From positions 1 through 60,474 of the IMG/VR virus record IMGVR_UViG_3300008267_000327: DNA of 60,474 bases. One strand, 5' to 3'. This DNA comes from a virus. Both the position numbers and the translations under genes were made by a program. Of this stretch, positions 6,517 to 57,126 are shown in pieces. Every line of letters begins with the position of its first letter. Position 1 is the first letter of the stretch. Below the pieces are notes generated by a model, which saw only the letters and a list, made by a program, of their open reading frames with translations, was not told where the DNA came from and did no database searches.

Positions 6517-6524
6517 TATTTATA
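6517..6524 (+). promoter_or_regulatory. TATTTATA late-promoter-like element, 4 nt before ATG
   Basis: TATTTATA ends 4 nt before the ATG at 6529 of the gp25-like gene, the first gene of the baseplate cluster. If it is the -10-like element, the mRNA would begin at or very near the start codon. No TTTG box sits 19-20 nt upstream. Confidence 0.55.
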
Positions 6525-6528
6525 ACAT

Positions 6529-6996
6529 ATGGCAGACGGTATTACATATGGTATAAATTTTCCCTTTAGAGATTCTTTGACTGGTGAGTATTTACAACTT
6601 ACACAATATCAAAAGGACGAGATAAGGGCGGATTTAATCCACCTTTTACTTACAAGAAAGGGGTCAAGGTATTATTTACCAACTTTTGGAACTAGAATAT
6701 ATGAATTTATTTTTGAACCTTTTGATGGTTTAACTTTTGACGCAATCGAGTCAGATATTAGAGACGCAATTACCACATTTATGCCAAATCTAATTGTTAA
6801 TAACATAACAATAGAACCAGCATCAATTGAGGATGAATCACCTGCAGGGGCATCTAGTTCTGTTATTGATGATGTTCCATATATATTTAGAGTTCCGGGT
6901 AAAGGAACTGCTGACTATACCGCAAAAATTAAAATAGATTACTCTACAGATTCTGCAACATTTGCTCAGAGTGATTTTGTAATTATTAATATTTAA
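6529..6996 (+). CDS. baseplate wedge protein, T4 gp25-like
   Basis: This 155-residue protein matches the gp25/IraD-like baseplate family, which forms the core of the wedge in contractile tails next to the gp6 homologue. Seen: an N-terminal 'GINFPFRDS', a helical region 'KDEIRADLIHLLLTRKGSR', then the conserved 'YYLPTFGTRIYEFIFEP' and 'AIESDIRDAITTFMPN'. Family members run 110-160 residues, so length fits. It is followed after 6 nt by the gp6-like gene, the standard order in contractile-tail phages, and opens the structural cluster. Confidence 0.9.
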   Translation: MADGITYGINFPFRDSLTGEYLQLTQYQKDEIRADLIHLLLTRKGSRYYLPTFGTRIYEFIFEPFDGLTFDAIESDIRDAITTFMPNLIVNNITIEPASIEDESPAGASSSVIDDVPYIFRVPGKGTADYTAKIKIDYSTDSATFAQSDFVIINI

Positions 6997-7002
6997 AATA
7001 AC

Positions 7003-8733
7003 ATGGCAAACGGAAAAATATCATATACAGTAAGAGATTACGAAGGAATAAGAACAGAACTTTTTAATTATGTAAGAACATATCAAGAAACTGTTTTACA
7101 ATACGCCCAACAAAGGTCTTCTATTTATAACATTGCAAGAACATATGGATTAAAAATCCCCGGACTGAGACCATCCGTTTCTCTTGTGGATTTTTCAATT
7201 ACTGTTCCAGCATTTGGTGATAAAGAAGACGAAAGATATTTGGGTATTTTATTGAGAGGTTCTCAAGTAAGCGGTGCGGGACAAGTTTTTGAAAACTTAC
7301 ATGATATTGATTTCTCATCCCCTTATAACGCTGAAGGTGCTCCAAACAGATTAAAAATACCTAACTTTAATGGTAATGGTGTCCTTGTAAACTATACAAT
7401 TACTAAAAGAGAAGTTGTTATAAACGGAATAACTAAAGTTTTTAAAAGAACAATAACCGCGAATGATGTTAGGCCATTTTTTGAATTGTTTTTACCTGAA
7501 AAAAACGTTTTAGGAATTACAAGTGTATTACTCAAAAGTGGAACAAATTATACAAACACCCCAACATCTGCGGAGTTTTTAGGTTCTGATAATAGATGGT
7601 ATGAGGTCGACGCTTTGGCGGAAGATAGGATTTTTATAGAAGACCCAACAAAAGTTTCTGACCAACCAGGTATAAAAGTGGGTAAGTATATTCAAACAAG
7701 TAACAGGTTTATGTCTGAATTTACACCTGAAGGGTTTAAGAAAATTATTTTTGGTGGTGGAACAAACTCAGCGCAAGAAGCATTAAATCAATTTACATCA
7801 GTTGGTTCAACTTTAAACTTACAAAATTATTTTAATAATTTTGCTTTAGGTTCTACCTTAACACCTAATTCCACATTGTTCATTCAATATAGAATAGGTG
7901 GTGGACTGGCGACAAACCTCGGCGTCAATGTAATTAATCAGATTGGAACCGTTTCATTTTTTGTAAATGGACCTTCTGATGTTACAAACAATTCTGTTAT
8001 AAATTCTTTGAGATGTAATAATGTCACCGCCGCAATTGGAGGTGCTAATGCACCAACCACTGAGGAAGTTAGAAACTTTGTTTCATTTAACTTTGCGGCA
8101 CAGAAAAGAGCGGTAACCATACAAGATTATGAGGCACTTTTAAGAAACATGCCGGCACAATTTGGTGCACCTGCTAAAGTTGCGATTACAGAAAACAATA
8201 ATAAAATAGACATACAAATTTTATCTTACGATACATCAGGTAAATTAACTAATGTTGTATCTAATACATTAAAACAAAATATTGCAAACTATTTGTCAAA
8301 CTATAGAATGATGAATGACTACATTTCTGTTATGACTGCAGATGTGATAGACTTATCAGTAAACGTTTCTGTAGTTCTAAACGCGGCACAAAACTCAGGA
8401 CAAATCATTACTGATATAATAGATAATGTTTCAAATTATTTTGACCCACTGAATAGACAGATGGGTGAAAATGTTTATTTAGCGGAACTAAAAAGTATAA
8501 TACAAAGACAAAATGGGGTTGTAACAGTAACAGGTCTTGATGTGTTTAATAACGTCGGAGGTCAATATTCATCTTCTCAAACATCTATGACATATTTGGA
8601 CCCTGAAACAAGACAAATAAGACCAATTGATGATACTTTGTTCGCTCAACCAAACCAAATATATCAAATTAGGTATCCCGGAAAAGACATCAAAGTTTCT
8701 GTTAAGAATTTCCAATCTGTCTCTTTTTCATAA
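7003..8733 (+). CDS. baseplate wedge protein, gp6/J-like
   Basis: A 576-residue protein placed directly after the gp25 homologue. It would dimerise to build the inner baseplate ring. Seen: 'SYTVRDYEGIRTELFNYV' at the N-terminus, and a C-terminal half with 'AAQKRAVTIQDYEALLRNMP' and 'VYLAELKSIIQRQNGVV'. The latter two resemble the conserved 'v.T..DYe.l' and 'V..SdI...I..v.GV' stretches of the gpJ/gp6 baseplate family. Length is close to T4 gp6 (660 aa). Assignment rests on these motifs plus synteny. Confidence 0.82.
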   Translation: MANGKISYTVRDYEGIRTELFNYVRTYQETVLQYAQQRSSIYNIARTYGLKIPGLRPSVSLVDFSITVPAFGDKEDERYLGILLRGSQVSGAGQVFENLHDIDFSSPYNAEGAPNRLKIPNFNGNGVLVNYTITKREVVINGITKVFKRTITANDVRPFFELFLPEKNVLGITSVLLKSGTNYTNTPTSAEFLGSDNRWYEVDALAEDRIFIEDPTKVSDQPGIKVGKYIQTSNRFMSEFTPEGFKKIIFGGGTNSAQEALNQFTSVGSTLNLQNYFNNFALGSTLTPNSTLFIQYRIGGGLATNLGVNVINQIGTVSFFVNGPSDVTNNSVINSLRCNNVTAAIGGANAPTTEEVRNFVSFNFAAQKRAVTIQDYEALLRNMPAQFGAPAKVAITENNNKIDIQILSYDTSGKLTNVVSNTLKQNIANYLSNYRMMNDYISVMTADVIDLSVNVSVVLNAAQNSGQIITDIIDNVSNYFDPLNRQMGENVYLAELKSIIQRQNGVVTVTGLDVFNNVGGQYSSSQTSMTYLDPETRQIRPIDDTLFAQPNQIYQIRYPGKDIKVSVKNFQSVSFS

Positions 8734-8821
8734 CCAATTTATTTATTGAATTCCTCACCTATTTTTTAAGGTATAGTATTTGTAAAAATACGCCCTAAAC
8801 TATTTATTCAATAAAGACTCA
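8734..8821 (+). promoter_or_regulatory. promoter region with TATTTATT box and inverted repeats
   Basis: This 88-nt gap holds TATTTATT at 8801-8808, exactly 13 nt before ATG 8822. It also holds a 6-bp hairpin GTATTT/AAATAC at 8776-8791. A 10-bp inverted repeat TTTATTGAAT/ATTCAATAAA lies at 8742-8751 and 8806-8815, with the right arm overlapping the promoter box. The hairpin may terminate the upstream transcript weakly; the large repeat could be an operator or chance in AT-rich DNA. Confidence 0.45.
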
Positions 8822-17968: not shown

Positions 17969-17976
17969 TATTTATA
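17969..17976 (+). promoter_or_regulatory. TATTTATA late-promoter-like element, 13 nt before ATG
   Basis: TATTTATA is followed by exactly 13 nt of A-rich sequence and ATG 17990. The spacing equals that at 8801-8808/8822 and at 39921-39928/39942, which argues that the element is functional. Confidence 0.55.
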
Positions 17977-21936: not shown

Positions 21937-24093
21937 ATGGCTTTAAGTTATAATCTTAGTGTAGTTGGAGACTGTAATCTAAGTGGAACAGGTGTAATCA
22001 CCATTTCATCGATTTTTGGAGGGACACCACCATACACAGTTCAATGGACAAGTCCAAATTTGAACTATGACGTTGGGTCGGCAACAGGATTTACATCATC
22101 GAGAACAAACCTGTTTTCGAGAACATACGAGATTTTAATAACCGACAGTTCACTACCACAAAATAATTTTTTGAATGTTTCCGTTCCTATATCTGATGGT
22201 GTATGTTGTTATGTTTCAGGGGTTCAACATACTACTTGCGGGTTAAACAATGGAATAGTAACAGGAACTTCATCTTCCGATTTTTCGAACACAATTTTTA
22301 CGTTGTATGATAATAACGATAATCCTTTACAAACTGAAACTATAACATCAAATAATGCTTTATTTGTTAATTTAAGTGCCGGAAGTTATTATATGACAGC
22401 GGTTGATGTCGGAGGTTGCACAGGAAGAAGTGAAAGTTTTATTATCGAGAGTTCAAACTCTTTGGATTACGGTTTATATGTTGTTTCCGATTCTTCATGT
22501 GATATAACACCGGTAGGTAAAATATTCGTTACAGGACAAACAGGGGCCCCACCATACATATACGAATGGAATAATGGTTTTTCGGGTGATAGTATCACTG
22601 GTATTTCTAGCGGTAATTATTCAGTCACTGTTACAGACTCTAACGGATGTTCAAAAACAACCGCAACATTTGTTGATAAAGTAATTCCGGTTAATGTAAT
22701 ATCAACAACCGCAACACAGCCAACATGTCTATCGAATGACGGTTCATTCACTATGTTAATAAGTGGAGGAACACCACCGTATTACTATTCTGCCAGTACT
22801 GGAGACATTCAAATTTCTTACTCCAATCAATATACACTTAATGGGTTAGGTGGAGGATTTTATTTTGTAGAGGTTACCGACGCCGCTTTCTGTAAAACAA
22901 ATTCCTCAGTTGTAATTATATCTCCAACAGGAATGAGTTCAGTAAATGTTGTGATAAATAATTCATCATGTTCATCGACAGATGGTTCAATACAAGTTAA
23001 TGTTGAGGGAGGAAATTCGCCTTACACTTATACTTTGATTTATCCTGATAGTAGTTCCAAAACAAACTCAACAACACAACCTAATTTTCAATTCAGTGAT
23101 TTATCAACAGGAACCTACACCCTTTTTGTTTCAGATTACTCAGGTTGCACATTTTCAGAAGAATACAGTGTTTTAACAAATAATACATTTGTTGTTTATG
23201 GTCTATCTACAGGTGCGACTTTCGGAAACAACAATGGTATTGTAAAAATTATCAAAACAAGTGGGGGAACAATACCATATACATATTCGATAGACAACAC
23301 AATAAACGATTTAAGAAATCCCTCTGATGAGGCAATATTCTTTAATATTTCACCGGGTCAACATACAATATCTGTAACAGATTCATTGGGATGTAAAAAA
23401 ACCGCACAAATTTATGTAGATAATTTACCTTCGGTGGATTTTTATCTTAATGCAAAATCAGCAGGTAGTGGTAATGACGGAGAAATAACCGCATTTATAA
23501 GTTCTGGAACTCCACCATTTACATTCGATTGGTCTGATAATGTTTCAGGAAACCCTCAAAGTATCAAAGTCACAGGTCTAAGTGGAGGGACTTACAGTCT
23601 AACGGTTACCGATTCAAATAATTCAACATTACAAAGGACGGTCGATATTGCACAAATCAATGTGTTTTCTTCTTATGAAACATACGTAGTTGGGGAAAAT
23701 AATTTTCAATCTAACACTAATTCAAAATATAGTATGTCTAAAATGTTGAATGAAGGATATGAAGATTTAACTGTTGGTCATAGTGGTTGCACACTTAACA
23801 GTGCAAATTTTATTGCGAATATTCAAGTTGCACCATATGGAATTCAAAGTGCCACAACTTTTTATACCACTAACTCATTAACAAATGCTCCGGACGATAA
23901 TCTTTGGTTAGACACTGCAAAAAATTTATTAATGAGTATTACTGGGATTGGGGATGTTATAATAGATGAAGTCGAAAATACTTTTATAATAACTAGTGAT
24001 GTAAAAAATCAGTATCTTGTAAATGGAGACATATCGACCTTATCGATAAATTTGTCATTACGTGTAGAGTATGATATTGATTGTATGATATGA
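21937..24093 (+). CDS. SprB-repeat tail protein / adhesin
   Basis: This 718-residue protein is built largely from about six SprB-type repeats of 80-95 residues. Each shows 'GGTPPYT' or a variant near its start and 'GxYxVxVTDSxGC' near its end, for example 'TGAPPYIYEWNNG' with 'GNYSVTVTDSNGCSKT', and 'SGTPPFTFDWSD' with 'GTYSLTVTDSNN'. SprB repeats are known from Flavobacterium gliding adhesins. A non-repeat C-terminal domain of about 140 residues follows from 'ETYVVGENNF'. No signal peptide, so this is a virion protein that borrows a host adhesin fold. It probably forms a fibre or decorates the baseplate. Its last codons overlap the next gene (ATGA). Confidence 0.82.
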   Translation: MALSYNLSVVGDCNLSGTGVITISSIFGGTPPYTVQWTSPNLNYDVGSATGFTSSRTNLFSRTYEILITDSSLPQNNFLNVSVPISDGVCCYVSGVQHTTCGLNNGIVTGTSSSDFSNTIFTLYDNNDNPLQTETITSNNALFVNLSAGSYYMTAVDVGGCTGRSESFIIESSNSLDYGLYVVSDSSCDITPVGKIFVTGQTGAPPYIYEWNNGFSGDSITGISSGNYSVTVTDSNGCSKTTATFVDKVIPVNVISTTATQPTCLSNDGSFTMLISGGTPPYYYSASTGDIQISYSNQYTLNGLGGGFYFVEVTDAAFCKTNSSVVIISPTGMSSVNVVINNSSCSSTDGSIQVNVEGGNSPYTYTLIYPDSSSKTNSTTQPNFQFSDLSTGTYTLFVSDYSGCTFSEEYSVLTNNTFVVYGLSTGATFGNNNGIVKIIKTSGGTIPYTYSIDNTINDLRNPSDEAIFFNISPGQHTISVTDSLGCKKTAQIYVDNLPSVDFYLNAKSAGSGNDGEITAFISSGTPPFTFDWSDNVSGNPQSIKVTGLSGGTYSLTVTDSNNSTLQRTVDIAQINVFSSYETYVVGENNFQSNTNSKYSMSKMLNEGYEDLTVGHSGCTLNSANFIANIQVAPYGIQSATTFYTTNSLTNAPDDNLWLDTAKNLLMSITGIGDVIIDEVENTFIITSDVKNQYLVNGDISTLSINLSLRVEYDIDCMI

Positions 24094-24368
24094 AACAAAT
24101 TCAAATATCCACTATATCAGGAGAGACACCAATAGATGTATATATCTCAGATTATTTGAGAACTAATCAATTATTATTAGGAAGTATCAATAGTCCAACT
24201 TCTTTACCTATAAATTCATCGTTATTTAATACAATGGATAATGTATTATTAATCATGAGTGCATCAAATGGATGTCAAACAATAAAACTACTCCCCTGCA
24301 CACCACAACCTAGCTCGACATCTTATCCAACACCAACCCCAACACCGACTCCAACACCAACCTTTTAA
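24090..24368 (+). CDS. small fibre-module protein with Thr-Pro tail
   Basis: A 92-residue protein from ATG 24090, overlapping the SprB gene stop. Seen: an N-terminal module 'MKQIQISTISGETPIDVYIS', which has relatives at the start of the genes at 28702, 28923 and 32559, and a C-terminal low-complexity Thr-Pro tail. In the gene at 28923 the same module is followed by a Thr-Pro linker and another domain. Here the frame stops within the Thr-Pro run. It may be a shortened version of such a modular adhesin, because a 58-residue reverse gene begins at the same point. It could equally be a free-standing connector. Confidence 0.68.
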   Translation: MKQIQISTISGETPIDVYISDYLRTNQLLLGSINSPTSLPINSSLFNTMDNVLLIMSASNGCQTIKLLPCTPQPSSTSYPTPTPTPTPTPTF

Positions 24369-24541
24369 GATTTATCTTTTTTATTTTGTTCCTTTTCGTA
24401 AAGTTTCAATAATTTCAAAGAATCTTTATAATTCTTTTCTAATTTATCGATTTCTTCAACACTGACAAAATTTTCACAGGCAGAGTTATATCTTTCTTCC
24501 GCTTCTTTTATAATTTTTTTTATTGTTTTTAACAACTTCAT
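24365..24541 (-). CDS. small 58-aa lysine/glutamate-rich protein on the reverse strand
   Basis: Reading the minus strand from ATG at 24541 gives a 58-residue protein that starts 'MKLLKTIKKIIKEAEERYNS' and is highly charged and helical, probably coiled coil. Its stop overlaps the stop of the converging Thr-Pro gene by 4 nt. The reason to believe it is real is upstream: a minus-strand TATTTATA box sits exactly 4 nt before its ATG, the same spacing as at 6529 and 41072. It interrupts the adhesin operon and may have been inserted together with its promoter. Function unknown. Confidence 0.6.
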   Translation of the reverse strand: MKLLKTIKKIIKEAEERYNSACENFVSVEEIDKLEKNYKDSLKLLKLYEKEQNKKDKS

Positions 24542-24545
24542 ATAA

Positions 24546-24553
24546 TATAAATA
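24546..24553 (-). promoter_or_regulatory. minus-strand TATTTATA promoter-like element
   Basis: On the minus strand this reads TATTTATA, then TTAT, then the ATG of the 58-residue gene. It is the only copy with clear promoter placement on that strand and supports the directionality of the motif. Confidence 0.5.
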
Positions 24554-24599
24554 TTTTCAATCAGTTGTTTATTAAAAATAAAGAAATTCTATAATTATT

Positions 24600-24632
24600 A
24601 AGTATTAAAAAATACTTTTCCTGTTATTTATA
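24600..24632 (+). promoter_or_regulatory. hairpin plus TATTTATA element upstream of 1074-aa adhesin
   Basis: An AU-only hairpin AAGTATT/AATACTT (about 24600-24618) is followed by TATTTATA at 24625-24632, 18 nt before ATG 24651. The hairpin may insulate the adhesin operon from upstream transcription. Confidence 0.45.
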
Positions 24633-24650
24633 AAAGAAGAAATTTAAAAT

Positions 24651-27600
24651 ATGGCACCTAGTGGTTGTTATTACGTTGGAATTTTGACCTACAGCTTGAG
24701 TGGTTGTCAAGATGCGTGCTTATCAGTAACCGGAAATGGTTATTATTCCGATTTCATAGTTTTAGCAACTAATGCAACTATTTTTACTGATTCAGGGTGC
24801 ACAACCACTGCTCCGTCGGGTTATTATTCAAATACTTTATCTGCGGGAACTTTGTGTTATACCGTTGGTTTGAGTGGGTTAGTTACTTCCGTGTCAACTT
24901 GTTTTGCAACACCAACCCCAAGCCCAACACAAACACCAACAGTTACACCGACTAGTGTTTTTACAACACAATTTGTGAGTTGTGAAGATGGTTCGAATAT
25001 TTTTAGATTCAGAGGTAGTTCAATACCAACCACAACCGGTAATACTTATTTCATAAGTGGTGGGACTGAATTCGTCGGTTGTGCGACAATAATTCAAAAT
25101 GATGGTAGAGGACCATTGTTGGATTCAAACGGAGTAATTTTCACATCGGTCAACGATTGTGGAGATGGATTATGTCCTAGAACCACAAGGACCGCTTCTA
25201 TACTTTCGAGATGTTCTGACGGACAAATTGTTTATTTCAATGTAGATACAGATACTGCGTTTATCGGTGCCACATACACATATCAAGGAGAATGTTATTC
25301 CTTTATAAAATTTGACGGACCCGGAGGACCATATATTGGTTCCCCACAGTTCAAAGATTGTATATCTTGTTCATTCACACCAACACCAACCCCAACACCA
25401 TTTCCAACACAAACAGTAACTCCATCAGTTTCCTCGTCACCAACCTCTTGTGCATATAACGAATTTTGTTTCAATACCTCTCTATTTAGTTTATCGGGAT
25501 TCAATGGTAATTACCAATCCACACAAAATTATTATAATAGTAGATTATATTACACAGGAGATGGAATCACCACAGGTTTTATATATCATACAGGGACTCA
25601 ATGGTGTTTGAGTAGTTCTTTAGGCGGAACTTGTCAATTGAAAGGTAAAAGTCCTTGTTATTCAAACTGTCCTGACATATCTTCAAATAATTTTGTTAGT
25701 GGACTTTGTCCCACACCTACTCCATCACCTAATAATTGTTCAACATTAAATTTTGATGCTTATTTTGATTGTGATTATACCCCTATTCCAACACCGACAA
25801 CCAGTATAGATTGTGGAAATGTAGATTTTACTTTTTCCACAACTCCCGGAACACCATCACCAACAAATACATCAGTTTATACCGTTGGTTTAGATTTTAA
25901 TATATTCAAAACCTCACAAACACCAACACCTTCATTTACCGCGACTTTAACACCAACCCCAACTAATAGGGTTCAAATATCAGGTCAGGCGACATTTACA
26001 ATTATTGATTCAACATTTGACTCACCTATTACTAAAGTATTGGTTAGCTGTTTCACAGGTGAAGAATATTATGTTACAAATCAGTTGATTTTTGAATCAA
26101 CAATAGTTTCACTTGGGTTTATAATGTCTGTGTTAATTATTACACCTTCCGGAAATCAATACCTATGTGTAAGATATGATAGAGATGTAACTAATTTATC
26201 ACCAAACTCAAATGTTATACAAATTTATTCAATTTATGGAAACTGTGACTCATGTGATATCAGAATAACACAAACTCCAACAGTTACACCAACACTAACC
26301 TCAACCCCGACTCAAACAACTACAAACACCCGGACTCCAACATCCACACCAACACAAACACAAACCCTTACACCATCTGTCACAATAGGACTCACCCCAA
26401 CTATGACCCCTTCAAATACAGAAACTTTGACACCTACACCAACTAATACTATGACATCAACACCAACTAATTCTAACACACAAACGCAAACCCCTTCGCA
26501 AACAATAACCGTAACTCCAACCAAAACTATAACTAAAACACCAACACAAACTAAAACATCTCAAGTCACACCAACACAAACTAAAACACAGACTACAACT
26601 CCAACAAATACTGTGACTTCAACAACCACACCTACAATTACAAAAACACCAACAATAACACCAACTATCACAGCAACGATAACTAATACTGCAACGATAA
26701 CTAAGACACCAACACCATCTAATACCGCAACGCATACAAAAACTCCGACACACACTCAGACGCCAACGCCATCTTTTACTATCGGTATAACACCTTCTGA
26801 AACGGCTAAGACCACTGTAACACCAACTAAGACACCAACTAACACACCAAGTCAGACGACAACAATGACACCATCAACGACTAGAACTGTGGCATTCAGA
26901 ACTACTTGGCAAGACCCTAATGGTATACAAACAATTGCGGAATTACCATTACTTAATTATCCTGCCGCTTTCCCGTTAGTCGTAAATTGGGGAGATGGAA
27001 CTGATTCAACACTTACATCTTATACTGACCCTGAAGTAGTTCACATGTATGGTGATGGAAACGCATATCAAGTGACTATTGTTGATAGTTTGAAATATGT
27101 TTTTAGTTTCGGTTTATCATCTTTATCTCAAGAAAGAAAAAATATGTTGAAGAGTGTAGATGAGTGGGGTATGTTTGAGGCGTTCACTACAACAAGACTT
27201 TTTGAAGGTTGTGAAAATCTAAATTGTGCTAGTGTTATAGATATTCCTTCATTCAATAATACTTTTGATTTAAACAAAATGTTCTATGATTGCACCGGAT
27301 TAACATCTATCAATCTTGTTGAGAATTGGGACGTATCACCGGTAACGGGAACGACCTATATGTTCTACAATACCAATTTCAACATATCTGAATTGAATTC
27401 TTGGGATACTTCTAACATTATAAACATGAGTTATATGTTCGGTAGTAATCCATCTTTTAATTCTGATATCACCCAATGGAATGTGTCAAATGTTACAAAT
27501 ATGAGTGGAATGTTCTCTGATACTAATTCATTCAACCAAGACCTTTCAACATGGGAAAGCAGTGGTTCAAGTTTAAGTGCGGTTACAAATATGTCAAATA

Positions 27601-27875
27601 TGTTTAATGGTGCTTTATCATTTGACCAAGACTTAGGTGGTTGGAACATATCTAATGTTTCTAACTTCAGTGGATTCATGAGCGGTGGGGTTCCTTTGAG
27701 AACGGCTTTCTTAGATTCCATTTATACAAATTGGAGCACATTATCAGTTCAACCAAACTTAAATCCTGTCTCATTCGACGGAATTTATTATTCAATCAGT
27801 GGAGGACAGGCTGGGAGGGATGTGTTAACAAACGCACCCAATAACTGGACTATAATAGATGCCGGAGGAATTTAA
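24651..27875 (+). CDS. modular tail adhesin: Cys modules, Thr/Pro-rich stalk, PKD-like and DUF285 repeats
   Basis: A 1074-residue chimeric adhesin. In order: a cysteine-containing module with '[15 protein letters not shown]' (residues 1-85), which recurs in two other genes here; short Thr-Pro linkers; disulfide-like modules ending in 'CISC' or 'CDSC'; a long Thr-rich stalk (about residues 540-745) of TPT, TQT and TNT units; a PKD-like stretch '[10 protein letters not shown]'; and a C-terminal domain of DUF285/BspA-like repeats with '[20 protein letters not shown]' and 'NMSGMF'. DUF285 repeats are common in bacterial surface proteins. No signal peptide. It most likely forms a tail fibre whose tip contacts the host. 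The Thr-rich stalk could be a site of O-glycosylation, an inference only. Confidence 0.82.
26270..26886 (+). repeat. Thr/Pro-coding low-complexity tract
   Basis: About 617 nt of near-repetitive ACACCAACA-type units encode the Thr-rich stalk of the adhesin. Shorter tracts of the same kind occur near 24330-24362, 24907-24953, 25376-25440, 25918-25965, 29128-29302, 30040-30157 and 32795-32932. They are long dispersed homologies between neighbouring genes. Confidence 0.85.
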
Positions 27876-27892
27876 AAAAATAAAAAAAAGTT

Positions 27893-28678
27893 ATGTCCAA
27901 AGTATACGTTTATGAAAGTTGTGAACCCTTAATTAAGGTTACAAACAAGTTGACTCAAGTTGTGCAAACTGAAAGGTTGAGGTTTACTTATACACAAGGA
28001 ACAATTTTCAAAGACAATGGAGGTATATGTTGGAATTTTATTGGTGAATTTGAAAGTGATTACATGTCCAATCCGGAAGTTTTTACCGTCAATTATAAAG
28101 GAAATTATTTTGAAAAAACCGGAAATTTATCATCCAATATATTCCCAACTTATGACGAGTGTCTAACAACTAACTTAAGTTCTTGCACACAGACATATTT
28201 TAGTGCAACAAGATGTAATAGTGGAAATACAGTTAACGTTAGAGTTTGTAATGTAGGACCAACAAATGGTAACGTAAAGTTATTACCAACAATAGGTCAA
28301 ACATGTGGCGTGTATAATCCTAGTGGAGATGATTTTTGTGTAACATTGAATTCACAAATTTCTGAGGTTGAAACTGAATACGAAATTATTACACCGGGTT
28401 GGTTGAATTATGACTGTGTTAATTGTCCAAGTTTGAAAACTTATATAGCGAACAGTTGTGATGGTAGCATTACGGGAGTTACAATTTATGACTATTTAAC
28501 GTCACAAACTTTGAGTGATAACACAGTAGTTTCAACTTTTACAAATAAAGGATGTTATGAGATAATATCTTATGAAGGTATAAAAATTATTTATGGATAT
28601 AATATATCAAACTCATATTTTATTTCGAGAACTTTCAACAACTGCGAAAGTTGTCAGATAAATAATTTAAACGCATAA
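27893..28678 (+). CDS. cysteine-rich tail-associated protein
   Basis: A 261-residue protein with 15 or more cysteines, mostly spaced as C-x(2)-C or in 'ATRCNSG'- and 'ANSCDGS'-like contexts. Similar units occur in the 1074-residue adhesin ('SCEDGSNIF', 'RCSDGQIV'). Each unit seems to be a small beta module of 60-70 residues ending in CxxC. No signal peptide or membrane segment. Because it lies in the adhesin operon and shares modules with its neighbours, it is probably a fibre or adhesin subunit. No named family recognised. Confidence 0.72.
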   Translation: MSKVYVYESCEPLIKVTNKLTQVVQTERLRFTYTQGTIFKDNGGICWNFIGEFESDYMSNPEVFTVNYKGNYFEKTGNLSSNIFPTYDECLTTNLSSCTQTYFSATRCNSGNTVNVRVCNVGPTNGNVKLLPTIGQTCGVYNPSGDDFCVTLNSQISEVETEYEIITPGWLNYDCVNCPSLKTYIANSCDGSITGVTIYDYLTSQTLSDNTVVSTFTNKGCYEIISYEGIKIIYGYNISNSYFISRTFNNCESCQINNLNA

Positions 28679-28701
28679 AAACTAAAATATTTGTTTATCC
28701 A

Positions 28702-28923
28702 ATGGGAATACAGGTAAATATCAATGGAATTACGGGTCAAAGTCCTTTCAACATATATATTTGTTTGACAGGTGGAACGCAATGTATTTTTATAGATAAA
28801 ACAGAAAATAATACATATCAATTTTTAATACCACCACCTTACGATACTTTATCATCATATATGTTAAAAATAATCGATGGAAATAATTCGATAATAACCG
28901 GACAAACAATAGTTACAGGATAA
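28702..28923 (+). CDS. small fibre-module protein
   Basis: A 73-residue protein opening with 'MGIQVNINGITGQSPFNIYI', the same module as at the N-termini encoded at 24090, 28923 and 32559. It ends after the module with no Thr-Pro tail. Its TAA shares the final A with the ATG of the next gene, which encodes a longer version. Probably a compact beta domain used as a connector or cap in the tail fibre complex. Function inferred from neighbours only. Confidence 0.68.
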   Translation: MGIQVNINGITGQSPFNIYICLTGGTQCIFIDKTENNTYQFLIPPPYDTLSSYMLKIIDGNNSIITGQTIVTG

Positions 28924-29570
28924 TGAGCCAATTAATAACCATATCAAATATAACCGCTAATACACCATTTGAAATTTATTATTGTGACTCAATGAGTGCT
29001 AATTGTATCTATGTCACATCGGCGTCTACAACACCAATAACCTTTTCAGTTCCTGATTCTGCATCAACGACCGATTTTATTATAAAAATAATAGATGTAG
29101 AAAATTGTGAGATAGGTAAAGAGGTTTATATAACGCCAACACCTACAAGTAGTTTGACTAGAACCCCTACACCAACTTTAACACAAACACCAACTTTAAC
29201 ACAAACAAATACTTCCACTCCAACCTATACACCCTCAAATACTTATACTCCATCTGTTACACCTACATTAACCAAAACACCAACAACAACACCTGTGATT
29301 TCCACACATCTCATAGGGAAAAATACATTTAATACGTCGATAGATGTTTGTAACGATTTAGTATCCCAAACAGAATATTATACTTACATATCAGAAGCAA
29401 ATATAGAACCAATAATTAGTGTTATTGTTTATAGTGCCAGTGCAAATGGTGTTCTATATAATCCTGTAATTGGTTATGGAAAATATGTAAAAATGAAATG
29501 GGGTAATGAATACTATGCTACGCAATTAAGTAATACAGGTCAAATAACTGATTTTGTGTTATGTGTTTAA
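28923..29570 (+). CDS. fibre-module protein with Thr/Pro linker and C-terminal domain
   Basis: A 215-residue protein with three parts: the recurrent N-terminal module ('MSQLITISNITANTPFEIYY', residues 1-70), a Thr/Pro/Ser linker (about 75-125), and a C-terminal domain of about 85 residues beginning 'THLIGKNTFNTSIDVCNDL'. It is translationally coupled to the preceding short paralogue. The design module-linker-head is what one expects for an exchangeable adhesin. The head has no recognised family. Confidence 0.72.
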   Translation: MSQLITISNITANTPFEIYYCDSMSANCIYVTSASTTPITFSVPDSASTTDFIIKIIDVENCEIGKEVYITPTPTSSLTRTPTPTLTQTPTLTQTNTSTPTYTPSNTYTPSVTPTLTKTPTTTPVISTHLIGKNTFNTSIDVCNDLVSQTEYYTYISEANIEPIISVIVYSASANGVLYNPVIGYGKYVKMKWGNEYYATQLSNTGQITDFVLCV

Positions 29571-29584
29571 AAAAAAAATAGAAA

Positions 29585-30709
29585 ATGAGTTGTCAAAACG
29601 TTAGTTTAATTTATTTAGGACCAGATTTTAATGGTGACCCGTGCACATATAACGGAACTTCAGCCGTGGACTATTACTACAACGGTTTTTTTAATATAGG
29701 AGAACAAATTTTTAACACTTTTCCGTGTTCACCTGAAGACGGGGTAAAAGACGGAATGTATATATATGGTGCAGGTGATAATAGAGTTTATATTGTTGTT
29801 GGTTTTTCAGGTGGTTTGGATGGTGTTATACAAGTTACAGGAACTTGTTACAGTTGTGCTATCGGATTAATAAAAAATAGTTCATTTTATTCTTATTATG
29901 ATTGTTGTGGTGAATATGTAGAAGGCACAGTTACCGACGTTAGTTCAATAACTGTAAATCTTGATATAACAAGACCATATACAAGAAATACTATAGTTGT
30001 TGTGCAACCCCCATCTAAAATTGAACCTATTTGTGCGACAGTCACACCAACCCCAACACCAACAAGAACCTTAACACCAACACCTAGTGTCACAGTTACT
30101 GCAACTGTTTCAAGAACACCAAGACCAACACCAACACCAACTCAAACACCGAGTAATGCGAAAATTGTCCCTGTTGTTGTTAACACTTGTGATTCAAATA
30201 CTTTATTCCCAATGGAGGTCGAGTGTTATACAATCAGTAACCCAACAACAAATTTAAGTTCTGATGGGGCAATAGGGATAAATATTCTTGGAGGACAAGG
30301 ACCATACAATGTTACATGGGCTTATGACGGTAGTAAAGGAACTACTTTATCTAATTTACCTCAAGGAAGTTATCCGGTCCAAGTGATAGATGCTTACGGT
30401 GATTTTAACCAAACAGTTATTTGTAAGTTAGGTTCAGATTTAACTTGTAGTCTCAGTGGAACTTGCACAGAGGTTCTTGGATGTGATTTGAATATAAGTA
30501 TATCGGTAAGAAATAGAACTTATAATAATAATGACGGTGCTTTATTTGTTACAATTCAAAACTCTTATAGTGTTCCGTCCATTTTATGGAGTCCCGGTGG
30601 ACAAACAACATCTTTTATTGATGGTTTACCAAAAGGTGTATACACGGTTACCGTCCAAGATACAAAAGTTCAGGGTTGTATAAAAACATTATCATACACA
30701 TTAAATTAA
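29585..30709 (+). CDS. adhesin with Thr/Pro linker and SprB-like repeats
   Basis: A 374-residue protein. Residues 1-150 form a cysteine-containing module ending near 'CYSCAIG'. Residues 150-195 are Thr/Pro-rich. The C-terminal 175 residues hold two SprB-like repeats, with 'LGGQGPYNVTWAYDGSKG' and 'GSYPVQVIDAYGD' in the first and 'SILWSPGGQTTSF' and 'GVYTVTVQD' in the second. It thus combines the repeat type of the 718-residue protein with the linker type of the 1074-residue adhesin. Likely a virion adhesin. Confidence 0.75.
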   Translation: MSCQNVSLIYLGPDFNGDPCTYNGTSAVDYYYNGFFNIGEQIFNTFPCSPEDGVKDGMYIYGAGDNRVYIVVGFSGGLDGVIQVTGTCYSCAIGLIKNSSFYSYYDCCGEYVEGTVTDVSSITVNLDITRPYTRNTIVVVQPPSKIEPICATVTPTPTPTRTLTPTPSVTVTATVSRTPRPTPTPTQTPSNAKIVPVVVNTCDSNTLFPMEVECYTISNPTTNLSSDGAIGINILGGQGPYNVTWAYDGSKGTTLSNLPQGSYPVQVIDAYGDFNQTVICKLGSDLTCSLSGTCTEVLGCDLNISISVRNRTYNNNDGALFVTIQNSYSVPSILWSPGGQTTSFIDGLPKGVYTVTVQDTKVQGCIKTLSYTLN

Positions 30710-30727
30710 TATAATAAAAATAATTGA

Positions 30728-33423: not shown

Positions 33424-33431
33424 TATTTATA
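33424..33431 (+). promoter_or_regulatory. TATTTATA late-promoter-like element, 3 nt before ATG
   Basis: TATTTATA is followed by TTT and ATG 33435, so a transcript from here would be essentially leaderless. The preceding 70 nt is pure AT-rich spacer. Confidence 0.5.
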
Positions 33432-33434: not shown

Positions 33435-35526
33435 ATGTCTTACATTATTAAAAATACTTCAGGATTAGTTAACACAAGAGTGACCGACGTTGGAAGAAGA
33501 AGATTATCACAAGGAAGATTTGACATTGCTTACTTCCAAATTGGTGATAGTGAAGTTAATTATCAATTAATTGACACCAACAGAATTGTAAACAACAACA
33601 TTCTAACTCCGGCATTCAACTCACAAAATGATGTTGGAACCCCACAATCTAATAAACAAAATGTCAAATATCCGTATTATGTAAATGGAGGTAATGGAAA
33701 TACTTATGGTATTCCATACATGGAAAGTAATGTGGATTCCGTTTACAACTCTGCGGGTTCTAAAGGTTTTTTTAGTTCGACAACATACAACTTGTGCACA
33801 AACACCTAATTCACCGCAAGTAAATGATTTTGTTACATTATATTTAGATGGTATTGGTGATTGTCAAAATATCTCACCATCACCTATTCTTACATATAAA
33901 ATACAATCTATTACAACCGCAGGTTCTAATTACACTATTACATTAGACAGAAATGTTCCTGATTATTCAAATTTAGGTTTAAGTGGTGATTTCGCTAAAG
34001 CACATGTTTACCCGTCGGGAATGACACAATTATATGATACTATTACACCACAACCGTTTTGGCAGACAGATACTTTGAATTTTGAATCTCCATGTGATGT
34101 AATTAACCGTGAAAATACTTTGATTTGGAATATGAACATCCCTTGGACTGAAAGTCCTGCAGGTTTATTCAGTAATGTGTCAGAATCATATAAAGAATAC
34201 AATTCGTCAACATACATAGGAACTAAAGAACTTTTGGGGTATAATGAAAACTCAGGACAAACAGATACAGGAGAAGTGTTTTATTACAACTCTTTTGATG
34301 AAAAGATAAATTTATCACCAAGTGACCAAAAGGCGATTGCTATTATACATTATACAAACCAAGATATTGATTTTGTTTACGGGGAAAAATTTGCAACACA
34401 ACCTTTTGACCCAACCGACCCCACTAATACAACAGGATTGGCTAGAAACTTTATGTTAAGTTTACCAACTGTTATGTGGCACAAAACAACAGGAACAACA
34501 ATAGGGTTGAATTTGTTTATTGACCCACCTAACAGGAGTGACTTATTTGATGCAGGTCCATATTATATCAAATCAAAAGTTAATGATGATATGAATGACC
34601 CAGGAATTAGATATTATCATTTATGGGATGATAATGCGGATGAAAAAAATCAACTTAATAGAGTTGGTAAAGTGTTTCCGGACCAACAAATCATTATTAT
34701 AGATGATGAGGAATTGGTTGCTGCGATGTCTTATAAAGCCAATCGAAATTGGACTCTCCCGGCACCAAAACTTTCTTTGATAACACCAAATACTTGTTTT
34801 ACAAACAACCAAGTTGCGGAAGGTATTATGTCTTTACCAAATGAAAGAATGTGGGTTACTTACAGATTTGATTCTGATTATTTCACAGAATCACTTCATT
34901 GTAATTATTATTCATATATAGATGGACCAAGTAGTGCTTGCACACCAACAACACAAAATGTTGCGGTGAGATTTGGTTCTGAATTTCCATTTTTAGCTGA
35001 TGGCTCTTTGAGTGGTTTTTCTGCTAATGGTATGAAAATTTTATGTCAAAAAGTAATTGGTGGAGGTAGACCTAACCCAACACAATGGAAAATGATAGAT
35101 GTGACCAATCAACTCACATCAACCATGAGTAATGGATATATTACACTACAAGGTCTGACAGGAAGAACATTTGAGATTTCTTTGAGTGGATATAATAATG
35201 CAACATCTTATAATCTAAATAACTACATAACATTACCTGCTGCGAATGGACAATCTGATGTAATGAATTTTGGGGAAGAATATTATTTCTATGGTAATCT
35301 TCAAACAGATATCACAGCAACAATTTATCAGATGAGATATCTTGTCACACTAAATAGAAATCAATTCACGAACACTTCTAATCCTACATGGACTTCGGGA
35401 ACTACTTCATTTATTAATGAAATTGGACTTTATAATCAAGAAAAAGAGCTTATGATTGTATCTAAATTGCAATCACCACAAATTAGACAGGGGATTCAGC
35501 AATTTGTTGTTAAGCTAGATTTTTAA
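33435..35526 (+). CDS. baseplate/tail fibre protein split by a +1 frame change
   Basis: The first frame (33435-33809, 124 aa) opens with 'VNTRVTDVGRRRLSQGRFDI' and 'YFQIGDSEVNY', resembling the TD.GR..la.G...i...iGDSE start of tail-fibre and baseplate attachment proteins. It stops at TAA 33807-33809. The frame one nucleotide on continues without a break to 35526 and clearly carries the rest ('NSPQVNDFVTLYLDGIGDCQ' onward, about 570 aa). Candidate shift sites are the T7 run near 33768-33774 or the CACCTAAT around the stop. The protein reads naturally if the shift is near the stop. It is either a sequencing or assembly indel, a real mutation, or a programmed +1 shift. The full product would be about 695 residues. 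Confidence 0.75.
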
Positions 35527-39920: not shown

Positions 39921-39928
39921 TATTTATA
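39921..39928 (+). promoter_or_regulatory. TATTTATA promoter-like element, 13 nt before ATG
   Basis: TATTTATA ends 13 nt before ATG 39942, the same spacing as at 8822 and 17990. No TTTG box at -33. Confidence 0.5.
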
Positions 39929-41059: not shown

Positions 41060-41067
41060 TATTTATT
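41060..41067 (+). promoter_or_regulatory. TATTTATT promoter-like element, 4 nt before ATG
   Basis: TATTTATT, then TGAA, then ATG 41072. Same 4-nt spacing as the copies at 6517 and, on the minus strand, 24553. Confidence 0.45.
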
Positions 41068-42487: not shown

Positions 42488-42760
42488 ATGCCAACATTTT
42501 ATGCAGACGATATTGACATCGAACCACATGAATTCGTGTCGGCGTGTCGAAAAAAAGAAATTCAAGAACTGATAGAAGAGTTAGTAGAATCAGGACATTT
42601 ACCACCAAGTGTTAAATCGTGGTCAAAAAAAGAAAACCCAAAGGGATTTCATCCAATGGAAGTCCGATTAGAAACCTCATTGGATAAATTACATGGAAAT
42701 TATCACCGACTAACAAGTGAGGAAGAAGAAACTATAATTAAAATTGCGAACAGATTATGA
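42488..42760 (+). CDS. hypothetical small phage protein
   Basis: A 90-residue acidic, helical protein ('CRKKEIQELIEELVESGHLP', 'SLDKLHGNYHRLTSEEEETI'). It is not recognised functionally. It overlaps the nuclease gene by 4 nt (ATGA) and is in an operon with it. No membrane or metal-binding motif. Confidence 0.72.
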   Translation: MPTFYADDIDIEPHEFVSACRKKEIQELIEELVESGHLPPSVKSWSKKENPKGFHPMEVRLETSLDKLHGNYHRLTSEEEETIIKIANRL

Positions 42761-43412
42761 ATTTAAAAGATATTGCACAAGAAATAAGAAACGTTATTTC
42801 GCAGAAACAATCAGAGTTGGGGTTAGAGTTTTTCGAGGAGGAACACAAATACCAAATGAAGGATACGGATGGGAAAATCAAAAACGACTTTCCCTCCGTA
42901 TCTAAGGTATTAAAATGTTTTTATGACGAGTTCCCAACGGAAGAAGCGGCTTACAAGAAATCAGGTGGAGACCCCGACGAACAAGAAAGGTTGATAAAAG
43001 AGTGGGCCGATGCGGGTGATTACGCAACTAATATGGGTAGTAGAACTCACTTTATCTTGGAAATAAATTGTGGCTTATGGAGAATAAAGATAAGACGGGG
43101 TATGGGTTGGTTATAACTGATTGGAAGACGAACAAAATTAAGAACTTTCAAACAACCCGTTATACCAAAAAAATGAAAACACCATTTCACTTTGTGGATG
43201 ATTATGCACTCGGACACTACTACATTCAGTTACCTCTGTATTGTAAGTTGTTCTTGAAGATGTTGGAGGGTAGTAAGTATGAAAACCTGAGTCTCTATGG
43301 TGGTGTTGTAGTCCTGTTAAAGGATGACTCGGATTACGTGGAGTATAGAATACCAAAAGAAGTCATTAGCACAACGATGCAAATGACAGTAAAAAACTAT
43401 CTTAAAAAATAA
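42757..43412 (+). pseudogene. RecB-like PD-(D/E)XK nuclease gene with internal, frame-changing deletion
   Basis: Frame 1 (42757-43116) encodes the N-terminus of a RecB-like phage nuclease, ending correctly at 'MGSRTHFILE' near residue 104. It then reads out of frame to a stop. From about 43066 the next frame carries the C-terminal half: 'WLMENKDKTGYGLVITDWKTNK' and 'HYYIQLPLYCKLFLKMLEG'. The 'DWKTN' is the second half of the catalytic motif. The middle of the protein, including the PD-type acidic residue usually just before 'KVWL', is missing. The junction lies around 43055-43066 and shows AATAAA-type microhomology. Re-initiation could make two fragments, but neither would hold a full active site. 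Confidence 0.78.
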
Positions 43413-44703: not shown

Positions 44704-44939
44704 GCGAAATAATCGGACAACCCCAAATCTCCCTAAAAGAACAACCCACAATAGTTTGTGAGTCATGTGGTTCTGAATTCTTTAGAGAAGTAACAATGTT
44801 AAAAAAAGTATCACGACTACTAACCGGAGCGGCAAACGACACAATTGTTCCATTCCCAACTTACATGTGTAATAGTTGTGGTTATGTTAATAAAGATTTA
44901 AGAATATTTGATGACGAAACACCAAAAATTGAAGAATAA
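44700..44939 (+). CDS. small zinc-ribbon protein
   Basis: A 79-residue protein with two CxxC knuckles, 'CESCGSEFF' (near residue 20) and 'YMCNSCGYVN' (near 57), separated by about 35 residues. This spacing suits a zinc ribbon. The acidic C-terminus 'FDDETPKIEE' is flexible. Such proteins may bind DNA, RNA or RNA polymerase. It overlaps the previous stop by 4 nt and is followed after 1 nt by the gp47 gene. Confidence 0.78.
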   Translation: MSEIIGQPQISLKEQPTIVCESCGSEFFREVTMLKKVSRLLTGAANDTIVPFPTYMCNSCGYVNKDLRIFDDETPKIEE

Positions 44940-44940
44940 A

Positions 44941-45427
44941 ATGATAAAAAGACTATTACACTTTTCTGATTTACATATCAGATTATTTAAGGACCACGAC
45001 CTTTACAAAAGTATTTTACAGACTGCCTTGTCTGAGTGGAAGGCACTTGCTCCTGACAGAATAGTATTCACCGGAGACCTGGTACACAGTAAAAACCAAA
45101 TGACACCTGAACTTATCGAGTTTGTTGCTTGGGTATTAACTGAATGTTCCAAGATTGCAAAAACTGTTGTCATTATTGGTAATCACGACTTCCTTGAGAA
45201 CAACACCCAAAGGTTGGATGCTCTAACACCAATCATCGATTCACTCAACAATGAAAATGTTACATACCTAAAAAACAGAGGTGTATATGAGGATAGTAAT
45301 ATAAATTGGTGTGTATATTCTCTTATGGAACACAACATTCCACCGGATATTAGTAAATCTGATAAAATTCTATATAAACTCTATTGATTCCCTCGTTGAA
45401 GGTAATGAAAAATTAGTTAATTATTAA
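44941..45427 (+). pseudogene. 47: recombination endonuclease subunit gp47 (SbcD/Mre11-like), truncated by internal deletion
   Basis: The readable frame (44941-45387, 148 aa) holds the first half of a metallophosphoesterase: D10/H12 in 'FSDLHIR', D46 in 'FTGDLVHS' and N81/H82/D83 in 'IGNHDF'. It ends in 'ISKSDKILYKLY' and a stop. T4 gp47 is 339 aa, and the later GH-type histidine motifs are absent. From about 45371 another frame reads 'FYINSIDSLVEGNEKLVNY' to TAA 45425-45427, one base before the next gene, as the original end should. So an internal piece of roughly 190 codons was lost with a change of frame. Without the missing histidines the nuclease should be inactive, although gp46 downstream is intact. 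Confidence 0.8.
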
Positions 45428-51000: not shown

Positions 51001-51801
51001 ATGAAAGAAAAAAATTCGGTAATTCCAATTAACCAAGAAGAAATCTCCTCTTATTTGAAAGATATCAGGAAGTTAAAAGTTATGACACCTGATAGAGAAA
51101 GATTTCTATCTGAGAGAATGCAGTCAGGAACCCTGACCACTGAGCAAGAAAAAGAAATAAAAAAAGAATTACTTGAAGGTAATTTGAGATTCGTTATTAC
51201 TGTGAGTAAACAATATCAAAATCAAGGTTTAGAATTACCTGATTTGATTGCGGAGGGTAATTACGGACTATTGAGAGCAATTGAAAATTTTGATTGGACA
51301 AAGAACCTAAGATTCATATCCTACGCTGTATGGTGGGTTAGACAATCAATTTTACAGTCTTTGAACGAAAACGCTCGGACAATTAGATTCCCAGTTAATG
51401 TCGTCCAAGAGTTTCAAAAGGCTAAAAAAGAACAAGAAATTACGGGAGAAGAACTACCGGATAAATACGTGAACTTACCATACACTATTAATTTAGATAA
51501 TCCTTTGAATGAAGAAGGAGATACTCTATTGGATGTTTTAGAAAACCCGAACTCAGAAAAACCTGAGGAAGTTTTCTCAACTAAAGACGTTCTAAAAGAT
51601 AAACTAATGTCAATTCTTAACATCCTTGATGAAAGAGAGAAAGTAATTATAGAGGATTATTTTGGTCTCACAGGTAGTCAAAGAACTTTAGAAGACATTG
51701 GAAATGATTTCGATTTGACTAAAGAAAGGGTTCGTCAGATTAAGGAAAAGGCTCTCAGGAAACTACGAAACGAATCGAGTATACTATTCGATTATTTATA
51801 A
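51001..51801 (+). CDS. RpoD-like primary-type RNA polymerase sigma factor
   Basis: A 266-residue sigma-70 protein that would direct host RNA polymerase. Seen in order: region 1.2 ('NQEEISSYLKDIRKLKVMT'); region 2 ('GNLRFVITVSKQYQNQGLEL' and 'LIAEGNYGLLRAIENFDW', then 'FISYAVWWVRQSILQSL', the -10 recognition helix); a short region 3; and region 4 ('LEDIGNDFDLTKERVRQIKE'), the helix-turn-helix for the -35/-33 element. This complete architecture resembles the Bacteroidota housekeeping sigma factor and not T4 gp55, which lacks region 4. It may recognise either of the two promoter types seen here. A terminator directly follows. Confidence 0.92.
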   Translation: MKEKNSVIPINQEEISSYLKDIRKLKVMTPDRERFLSERMQSGTLTTEQEKEIKKELLEGNLRFVITVSKQYQNQGLELPDLIAEGNYGLLRAIENFDWTKNLRFISYAVWWVRQSILQSLNENARTIRFPVNVVQEFQKAKKEQEITGEELPDKYVNLPYTINLDNPLNEEGDTLLDVLENPNSEKPEEVFSTKDVLKDKLMSILNILDEREKVIIEDYFGLTGSQRTLEDIGNDFDLTKERVRQIKEKALRKLRNESSILFDYL

Positions 51802-51812
51802 TTTCAAATTTA

Positions 51813-51844
51813 GGGTGTATTTATTTAATACACCTTTTATTTTT
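51813..51844 (+). terminator. intrinsic terminator after sigma factor gene
   Basis: An 8-bp stem GGTGTATT/AATACACC with loop TATTT and a U-rich tail TTTTATTTTT. The tail also forms TATTTTTG (51838-51845), a possible -7 box for the next gene, 18 nt before its ATG, but without a TTTG box. Confidence 0.8.
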
Positions 51845-55014: not shown

Positions 55015-55713
55015 ATGGAAAATTCAAAAGAGTTGTTTAGAAAAAAAATTTCAGATGCTTTTAATTCTTTACCAGAAATAAATACTAAAACTATGCTTGA
55101 TTCGGTAAAGTATCAAGGTATGGTTAAAGAAGACGGTGAAGTTGAAGAAAAATGGAGTGAAAAATATAAAAAAAGCATTGATTGTAATAACCCTAAGGGA
55201 TTTAGTCAAAAGGCTCATTGCCAAGGAAGAAAGAAGAAAAAAGAAACCAAAGAAGCGACTGGTTCAGGTTCTTCAGGAGGATATGAAGCACCTTTATTTG
55301 GTGAAGAAAAAGATACTGAAAAATTTGAAGCTCCTGTGGCTTTTGCCGATAGTGAATTTGTAAGGAGAAGTCACTCAGAAACCAAAAAAATTGAGGCGAC
55401 TGAAGCGACAGGTAGTGGTTCTGTAGGAGCATACTCAACACCCGCATTTTTAGCAAAATCAACAAGTAAAAAAAATTGGAGAGGCAAATCAAAAACACAA
55501 ATACCGGGAGGAACTTTTGTATCTGTAAAGAAAAAATGTAAAAAGTTCCCATACTGTAACCAAGGTGATATAAACGCTCTCAATATCTTCAAAGAAGAAT
55601 CAGTTCAAGAAGCGATAAAGACGGTCTCTGAAAAATTAAACCTCAGTGAAAATGTAATTAAAGCTATTTTGGATTATGAGTATGAAAAATTGGGTAAAGA
55701 AAGATATTTATAA
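55015..55713 (+). CDS. lysine-rich virion-type protein with repeated ATGSGS-G-Y motif
   Basis: A 232-residue protein from ATG 55015 (an ATG at 55006 is also possible). Seen: 'SIDCNNPKGFSQKAHCQGRK' near residues 52-71, a conserved basic Cys/His motif seen in virion-associated phage proteins; two copies of 'EATGSGSxGxY' near 87 and 137, each followed by a P-x-F/L phrase; and a C-terminal 'KKKCKKFPYCNQGDINALNI'. The basic parts suggest DNA or RNA contact inside the capsid. Function not established. The repeats look like binding tags for a capsid or scaffold partner, an inference. Confidence 0.65.
   Translation: MENSKELFRKKISDAFNSLPEINTKTMLDSVKYQGMVKEDGEVEEKWSEKYKKSIDCNNPKGFSQKAHCQGRKKKKETKEATGSGSSGGYEAPLFGEEKDTEKFEAPVAFADSEFVRRSHSETKKIEATEATGSGSVGAYSTPAFLAKSTSKKNWRGKSKTQIPGGTFVSVKKKCKKFPYCNQGDINALNIFKEESVQEAIKTVSEKLNLSENVIKAILDYEYEKLGKERYL
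55705..55712 (+). promoter_or_regulatory. TATTTATA promoter-like element, 16 nt before ATG
   Basis: TATTTATA overlaps the end of the preceding coding region and lies 16 nt before ATG 55729. It matches the late-type element of the structural genes. Confidence 0.4.
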
Positions 55714-55728
55714 TAAAATAATATTAAC

Positions 55729-57108
55729 ATGAAATTATCAGGAAAAAGTATAGACAAACTTGTTGAAAGTATTTTGAACGAGGAAATAAATAACAAAGTT
55801 TCTTTAGTAGTTGAGAAATTAAAAGGTAAACAACATAAATTAGATGTTGCGGCACCGAAAGGTAAATTAACTAAAGCGGATTTTGACAAATTAAGAGGTG
55901 CAAAGAAAAAAGAAGCCAAAGAAGGTAAGGGAATGTGTGAACAATGTGGTAGTGAGATGTCCGAAGGTGTATGTAATGAATGTGGAAGTGTTGGTGTTTT
56001 TGAAGGGGACGATATAGAAGTTGGAGAAGGAAATAAATTTTCCGGAGAATTAGAAAAAGCGAGAAAAGAAAATAAAAAAGAATTTACTGTTGATGGCAAA
56101 ACTTATCCTGTAAAAGAAGGTAAGGAAAAATGGATTCAAAAAACAGGGATGAAAAAAGGTGCACTACATAAAAAACTTGGAGTTCCTGAAGATGAGACAA
56201 TACCTGTTTCTAAATTAAAATCATTAAAAAAAGAATTACAAGGTAAATCTAAGGGTGATAAGAAACTTTCAGCGTCAGACCTGAAACTTCTTAAACAAGT
56301 CAATATGGCGTTAAATTTAAAAAGTTTAAAAGAAAGTAGTGTTTTAAACTTAACTGAAACAGAATTGGTTGACATGATTGAAAACATTGTTTTAGAACAA
56401 AAAACCAAAAAAGAGGAAGATATTAAAGTTTCAAAAGTGACAAACAAATTGAAGGATACAATAAGTAAAAAATATGTGCCAGGTTTGGCAAAAACACAAA
56501 AAAGTTTGGATGCAAGTAAAAAAGAAAATGATGATTATATTGCATCTGTTACCAAAAAAATGAAAGAATATTTAAAAAATGGTTCTGAAGAAACATATGA
56601 ATCTAATCCCGAAAAATTCCCACAAGGAAATGGACAAATGAAAAAAGGAGATGTTAAAGCATACTCTCCATCAGATGCTGTTGAAGAATACATTGAAGCG
56701 TTTTCTTATCCCGGTATGACAAACTTAGTGTATGACGAAATTAAACCTGAAGAAGAAAAAATAGAAATGTATCTAAAAGGTAATTCTAAAACAGGTAATG
56801 CTGAAGTTGATGAATCAGGAAAGGCGTTAGGTAATGTTGTTCCAAGTAAGACAGGGGAAAGATTCATGAAGAATTACAAAGACAATTTATACGGTGCAGA
56901 ACAAATGGGTGCTTCTTATAAGAGATATCCACAAGACACTATTGAAGTTGCTGGAGAAAAAAGAAAAGACGGAAAATTGAAAAATACAAGTAAGGCTCAA
57001 AAAGTTTTAAATAAAGTCGAAGAATCGGAAGAAAAGAAAGAAAAAATAATTTCCGAAGAGATGAATAAGATGAAAAATCTTATTTCTTACAATAAGAAAA
57101 CTCAATAA
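55729..57108 (+). CDS. lysine/glutamate-rich internal or scaffold-like protein with zinc-ribbon knuckles
   Basis: A 459-residue, highly charged and largely helical protein. Seen: an N-terminal helix 'KSIDKLVESILNEEINNKV', a zinc-binding pair 'CEQCGSEMSEGVCNECGS' near residue 70, a globular stretch 'WIQKTGMKKGALHKKLGVPE' near 137, and 'LNLTETELVDMIENIVLEQ' near 207. Composition (Lys, Glu, few aromatics) is like T4 internal or scaffold proteins. The I/L-x-E phrases such as 'NIVLEQ' resemble T4 prohead protease sites. Both points are analogy, not proof. Preceded by a TATTTATA element. No enzyme motif. Confidence 0.62.
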   Translation: MKLSGKSIDKLVESILNEEINNKVSLVVEKLKGKQHKLDVAAPKGKLTKADFDKLRGAKKKEAKEGKGMCEQCGSEMSEGVCNECGSVGVFEGDDIEVGEGNKFSGELEKARKENKKEFTVDGKTYPVKEGKEKWIQKTGMKKGALHKKLGVPEDETIPVSKLKSLKKELQGKSKGDKKLSASDLKLLKQVNMALNLKSLKESSVLNLTETELVDMIENIVLEQKTKKEEDIKVSKVTNKLKDTISKKYVPGLAKTQKSLDASKKENDDYIASVTKKMKEYLKNGSEETYESNPEKFPQGNGQMKKGDVKAYSPSDAVEEYIEAFSYPGMTNLVYDEIKPEEEKIEMYLKGNSKTGNAEVDESGKALGNVVPSKTGERFMKNYKDNLYGAEQMGASYKRYPQDTIEVAGEKRKDGKLKNTSKAQKVLNKVEESEEKKEKIISEEMNKMKNLISYNKKTQ

Positions 57109-57118
57109 AAATTCACAT

Positions 57119-57126
57119 TATTTATA
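57119..57126 (+). promoter_or_regulatory. TATTTATA promoter-like element before hairpin-embedded start
   Basis: TATTTATA lies 27 nt before ATG 57154 and just before a perfect hairpin that contains this ATG. Confidence 0.4.

Follow-up and report, generated by a model that had tools for sequence, protein, structure and literature searches.

TATTTATA, a probable late-promoter box of two large groups of phages, and its candidate gp55-like sigma factor

The window analysed here, a whole stretch of 60,474 nucleotides from the IMG/VR record IMGVR_UViG_3300008267_000327, belongs to a large tailed phage carrying T4-type baseplate genes and covers a fragment of its genome. An octamer, TATTTATW, lies directly in front of several of its genes, which raises the question of whether it is a promoter element and, if so, which protein reads it. 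A sequence-only reading had listed these boxes, interpreted them as a late-type promoter element with quantised spacing to the start codon, and proposed a distinct late transcription system. Every listed box and gap is found in the sequence, including the minus-strand site at 24553-24546 (gap 4). The sites retained, together with related features, are collected in Table 1.

Table 1. Box sites, hairpin arms and sigma factor gene in the window; the gap is the distance in nucleotides from box to ATG.
Feature	Position	Strand	Context
Late promoter box (probable in function) TATTTATA	6517..6524	+	gp25 baseplate gene, ATG 6529, gap 4, leaderless class; 29/42 orthologs
Late promoter box (probable in function) TATTTATT	8801..8808	+	1855-aa gene, ATG 8822, gap 13; 37/39 orthologs
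Late promoter box (probable in function) TATTTATA	17969..17976	+	302-aa gene, ATG 17990, gap 13; 15/18 orthologs
Late promoter box (probable in function) TATTTATA	33424..33431	+	ATG 33435, gap 3, leaderless class; 18/25 orthologs, gap 4
Late promoter box (probable in function) TATTTATA	55705..55712	+	459-aa gene, ATG 55729, gap 16; 17/18 orthologs
Probable late promoter box TATTTATA	39921..39928	+	ATG 39942, gap 13; box in 2/2 orthologs, gap 4
Probable late promoter box TATTTATA	5817..5824	+	HNH-type endonuclease gene, ATG 5839, gap 14; in hairpin loop
Possible late promoter box TATTTATA	24625..24632	+	ATG 24651, gap 18; pattern and position only
Possible late promoter box TATTTATT	41060..41067	+	ATG 41072, gap 4; pattern and position only
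Possible late promoter box TATTTATA	24546..24553	-	58-aa ORF, ATG 24541, gap 4; pattern and position only
Hairpin 5' arm ATTATAGGTG	5806..5815	+	around the 5817 box; would not be part of a transcript begun past the box
Hairpin 3' arm CACCTATAAT	5831..5840	+	overlaps the start codon at 5839
RpoD-like sigma factor gene	51001..51801	+	Pfam regions 1.2, 2 and 4; not the favoured reader

The number of octamers in the window is not above chance (31 copies against 25.1 +/- 4.7 expected, a total reached by 11 of 100 shuffles), but their placement is non-random, as had been claimed. The box lies within 30 nt upstream of 10 of the 54 window genes. A Markov model built on those upstream regions predicts 0.83 such genes and never exceeded 5 in 2000 trials. 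More than 550 IMG/VR relatives were matched for one phage group and at least 600 for the other, the two groups being that of the window and that of the cultured Flavobacterium phage immuto. Among 8-mers in the 50 nt upstream of genes, TATTTATA shows the strongest enrichment across 107 dereplicated loci (146 copies against about 5 expected), a figure that overstates the independent events, since related loci have common ancestry. Tests on single genomes are free of this problem. De novo 8-mer searches in three related phage contigs of about 320 kb each (G024, G005 and G012) ranked TATTTATA first, second and second by z-score in the contigs of 317, 326 and 322 kb, with 43- to 57-fold enrichment; the other top word, ATATTTAT, overlaps the box. 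Around half of all TATTTATA copies in these genomes (50/95, 44/97 and 49/98) lie within 40 nt upstream of a same-strand ATG, while only 12, 9 and 11 copies of the reverse complement occupy that position. The reverse complement thus lacks comparable enrichment, and the element is directional.

Conservation of the box was followed through the orthologs of the window genes. It is kept in 69-95% of the orthologs of five genes (6529, 8822, 17990, 33435 and 55729) and is absent before those of gp6 (0/49), gp46 (0/48), gp47 (0/54) and the RpoD-like sigma factor (0/57). Orthologs of most other window genes also lack it, a few carrying it at 3-16% and one in 2 of 4. The footprint removes one site of the sequence-only reading, the box before 57154 (site 57119, gap 27), which is found in 0/38 orthologs and is followed by terminator-like sequence. 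The TATTTATT copy at 51818 was likewise rejected as a promoter: it forms the loop of a terminator-like hairpin (51801-51835) at the 3' side of the RpoD-like sigma gene, an arrangement that recurs in relatives. Upstream of gp25, three loci (L114, L137 and L168) carry two boxes 27 bp apart (gaps 30 and 3), which suggests tandem late starts.

Chance, or an AT-rich bias near gene starts, would be in keeping with the window total and with the AT-rich upstream regions. This explanation is refuted by the ortholog footprint and is further opposed by the Markov control on those same regions, by the directionality of the signal and by the lack of a comparable one in other AT-rich phages; we regard it as practically negligible.

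The same element is found in immuto (160 kb), where TATTTATA is the top upstream 8-mer and 23 of its 45 copies are found no more than 40 nt ahead of genes, including those for terminase, portal, sheath, tube, hub and tape-measure. When virion modules were grouped by the analyst from immuto's own annotation, the box preceded 14 of 55 virion-module genes and 9 of 177 others (p 6e-5). An exact box is missing before some virion genes, one being the major capsid gene of immuto. The 70 loci analysed from the immuto group hold 291 copies of the box, of which 106 are upstream, against 4.0 expected. As a positive control, the same 8-mer test recovered the T4 late consensus TATAAATA from T4 at rank 2. 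No comparable TATTTATA signal was seen with this test in Mel-JY01 (rank 91, 5/63 copies), LR756508 or part of Tenacibaculum PTm1. The enrichment before virion and endonuclease genes is thus position-specific, strand-specific and conserved, and the interpretation as a late-type element that shares the strand of its gene, mainly precedes virion genes and differs from the T4 box holds; its timing is presumably late. The host of the window's group was sought by scanning bacterial genomes for gp6, and no relative was found. Many genes in loci L332-L348 of the immuto clade are preceded by another repeated element, TTTAGGTATCAATAATTAA, possibly an early promoter.

In every data set, the gap between box and ATG is bimodal, at 3-4 and at about 12-17 nt. 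An A is conserved at the fourth and fifth nucleotides past the box and coincides with the ATG position in short-gap genes, so leaderless mRNA is the simplest reading for these. Both spacings would fit one start point, about 4-6 nt after the box on the conserved A, with transcription beginning at the A of the ATG when the gap is 3-5 nt and before a short leader when the ATG lies 12-17 nt after the box. The quantised spacing of the earlier claim therefore stands as a bimodal distribution and would reduce to two gene classes, leaderless and short-leader. Furthermore, in both phage groups the positions -17 to -14, counted from the box start, form an A/T block (GC 12-14%, against 30-32% in the flanks). 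A separate weak signal, TTG-N17-21-TAnnTTTG, precedes some genes, mainly in one genome; these genes and the box genes are nearly disjoint, with 1 gene in common per genome. Promoters of the TTTG / TAnnTTTG type are the housekeeping promoters of Bacteroidota, whereas the TATTTATA box has no TTTG.

A box that acts in the 5' leader, on translation or on RNA processing, could also explain why the gap to the start codon is so small (3-4 or 12-17 nt) and why none of the top upstream 8-mers of these phages resembles a Shine-Dalgarno sequence. We consider this improbable. The box marks a specific gene set, and most genes, operon-internal ones like gp6 among them, lack it; the box is accompanied by the A/T block at a fixed upstream distance; and a hairpin layout found at endonuclease genes is sensible only if the RNA starts after the box.

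In this layout, the hairpin is escaped only by RNA started after the box. It occurs at 8 of 20 endonuclease-type genes, recognised by simple motifs and partly checked with Pfam, and at 12 of 681 others (p 9e-9). The window gene at 5839, with a Pfam HNH match just below cut-off, is an example: the read-through RNA folds at -15.2 kcal/mol (z -3), and RNA from 5829 on is unfolded (0). The same late-promoter hairpin has been documented for T4 I-TevI, segB and Aeh1 mobE (PMC2988022), also endonuclease genes, with the 5' arm upstream of the box and the 3' arm over the translation start. In those cases the Shine-Dalgarno is hidden, whereas here it is the start codon region, and the box is TATTTATA. 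The layout lends independent support to the promoter reading.

Which protein reads a promoter of this kind? The sequence-only reading had suggested a search for a gp55/gp33-like factor. No gp55-like gene lies within the 60-kb window. The T4 gp55 family model matches one ORF in each of 7/7 large relatives and in immuto (gp118), each match being weak alone. The proteins of the two phage groups are homologous to each other (E 5e-17), and their profile scores 37.3 against T4-family gp55, compared with at most 21.6 in 100 column shuffles. The homology to the gp55 family (PHROG_234) is distant and collinear across sigma domain 2 (hhalign probability 62%). A fold model (pLDDT 74) aligns with gp55 as seen in the T4 late open complex (7d7c_F) with Z 10.3 over 121 residues at 4.8 A, and the other top structural matches are also sigma factors, although for helical folds a Z near 10 cannot settle the matter on its own. 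A PDB search with the sequence profile gave no relevant match, and Foldseek against the PDB, with the full model and the C-terminal domain, returned nothing under E 0.001. A candidate sigma homologous to gp55 thus exists in phages using the box, and it probably reads TATTTATA. Mel-JY01 carries a relative (36%) of the immuto gp55-like protein and shows no comparable box signal, so membership of the sigma family is not enough to predict use of the box.

The RpoD-like sigma of the window is another potential reader, the gp55-like protein then doing something else. It has regions 1.2, 2 and 4, is highly conserved and occurs in 24 of 25 large relatives. Profile searches detected no such protein in immuto, which has the gp55-like protein and uses the same box; the RpoD-like sigma is therefore the weaker candidate, was rejected as reader, and in our judgement is unlikely to fill this role. 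A clamp-binding role for its conserved LFDY tail was also rejected, since an origin from RpoD may be enough to account for the tail; the motif is missing from family-B polymerase C-termini, and no other convincing protein with this tail was found.

The most probable explanation, held with good though incomplete confidence, is that TATTTATA is the late-promoter -10 element of the two large phage groups. A phage gp55 homologue of about 235-270 aa would bind the host RNA polymerase core and read the box as its -10. The presence of this homologue speaks against the wholly separate transcription system proposed earlier. The arrangement looks instead like a divergent form of the T4-type late system, whose box has changed, whose sigma is larger and whose promoters have gained an upstream block; sigma and box would be paired in it, and expression would be late. 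As in T4 (PMC2988020), an 8-bp A/T box at -10 precedes virion genes, the sigma of the gp55 family has domain 2, and homing endonucleases have the late promoter in a hairpin. Three features are new. The box centre is TTT here and AAA in T4, where the consensus is read on the non-template strand; in these phages the T4 consensus is far less enriched than TATTTATA. The A/T block, about 15 bp upstream, has no counterpart in T4, whose late promoters have no conserved element upstream of the box and whose sites have a GC of 50% at this position. Finally, the gp55 family has no domain 4 and a short C-terminal clamp-binding motif after domain 2, whereas the sigma here has about 95 extra C-terminal residues that form a helical domain; its best matches, which are weak, are to sigma region 4 (Z about 5). 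The gaps from box to ATG also differ, being mostly 24-28 nt in T4, where transcription begins about one helical turn away from the box.

Clamp-activated late transcription in T4 involves a gp45-type sliding clamp and the gp33 co-activator, a small protein that evolves fast. No such clamp was detected in these phages above the cut-offs of the PF02916, PHROG_223, PCNA and beta clamp models, which a diverged clamp could escape. It is conceivable, although we would not favour it, that the late sigma fuses a gp55-like domain 2 to a region-4-like domain and reads box and A/T block without a T4-type clamp. A two-domain protein of this kind would be the fused late sigma of which, according to a review of T4, no natural example has been found (PMC2988020), and the extra domain bears on the question of why none is known.

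Searches of the available literature found no report of this box. The proposed system would supply a rule for recognising late promoters in two abundant phage groups, whose late genes were not predictable before, and it names a testable candidate reader in a cultured phage. It would also imply that, in a gp55-type system, the centre of the box is open to change.

Further observations concern the proteins of these phages. An N-terminal tag resembling MKKIIRLTESDLTRLVKKVIxE is present in dozens of proteins of G005, G012 and G024 (e.g., G012 39107 and G005 172690), at 9 of 40 short-gap box genes and 29 of 944 genes without a box; it is perhaps a capsid-targeting tag. Several window genes, including a tail-type gene and gp47, are seemingly split or shortened (33435-35526, 42757-43412 and 44908-45387), probably because of indels in the assembly or true frameshifts; the relatives of the 33435 gene mostly consist of a single ORF of about 730-790 aa. 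A run of proteins with Thr-Pro repeat linkers (24081-33362) likely comprises tail or decoration proteins.
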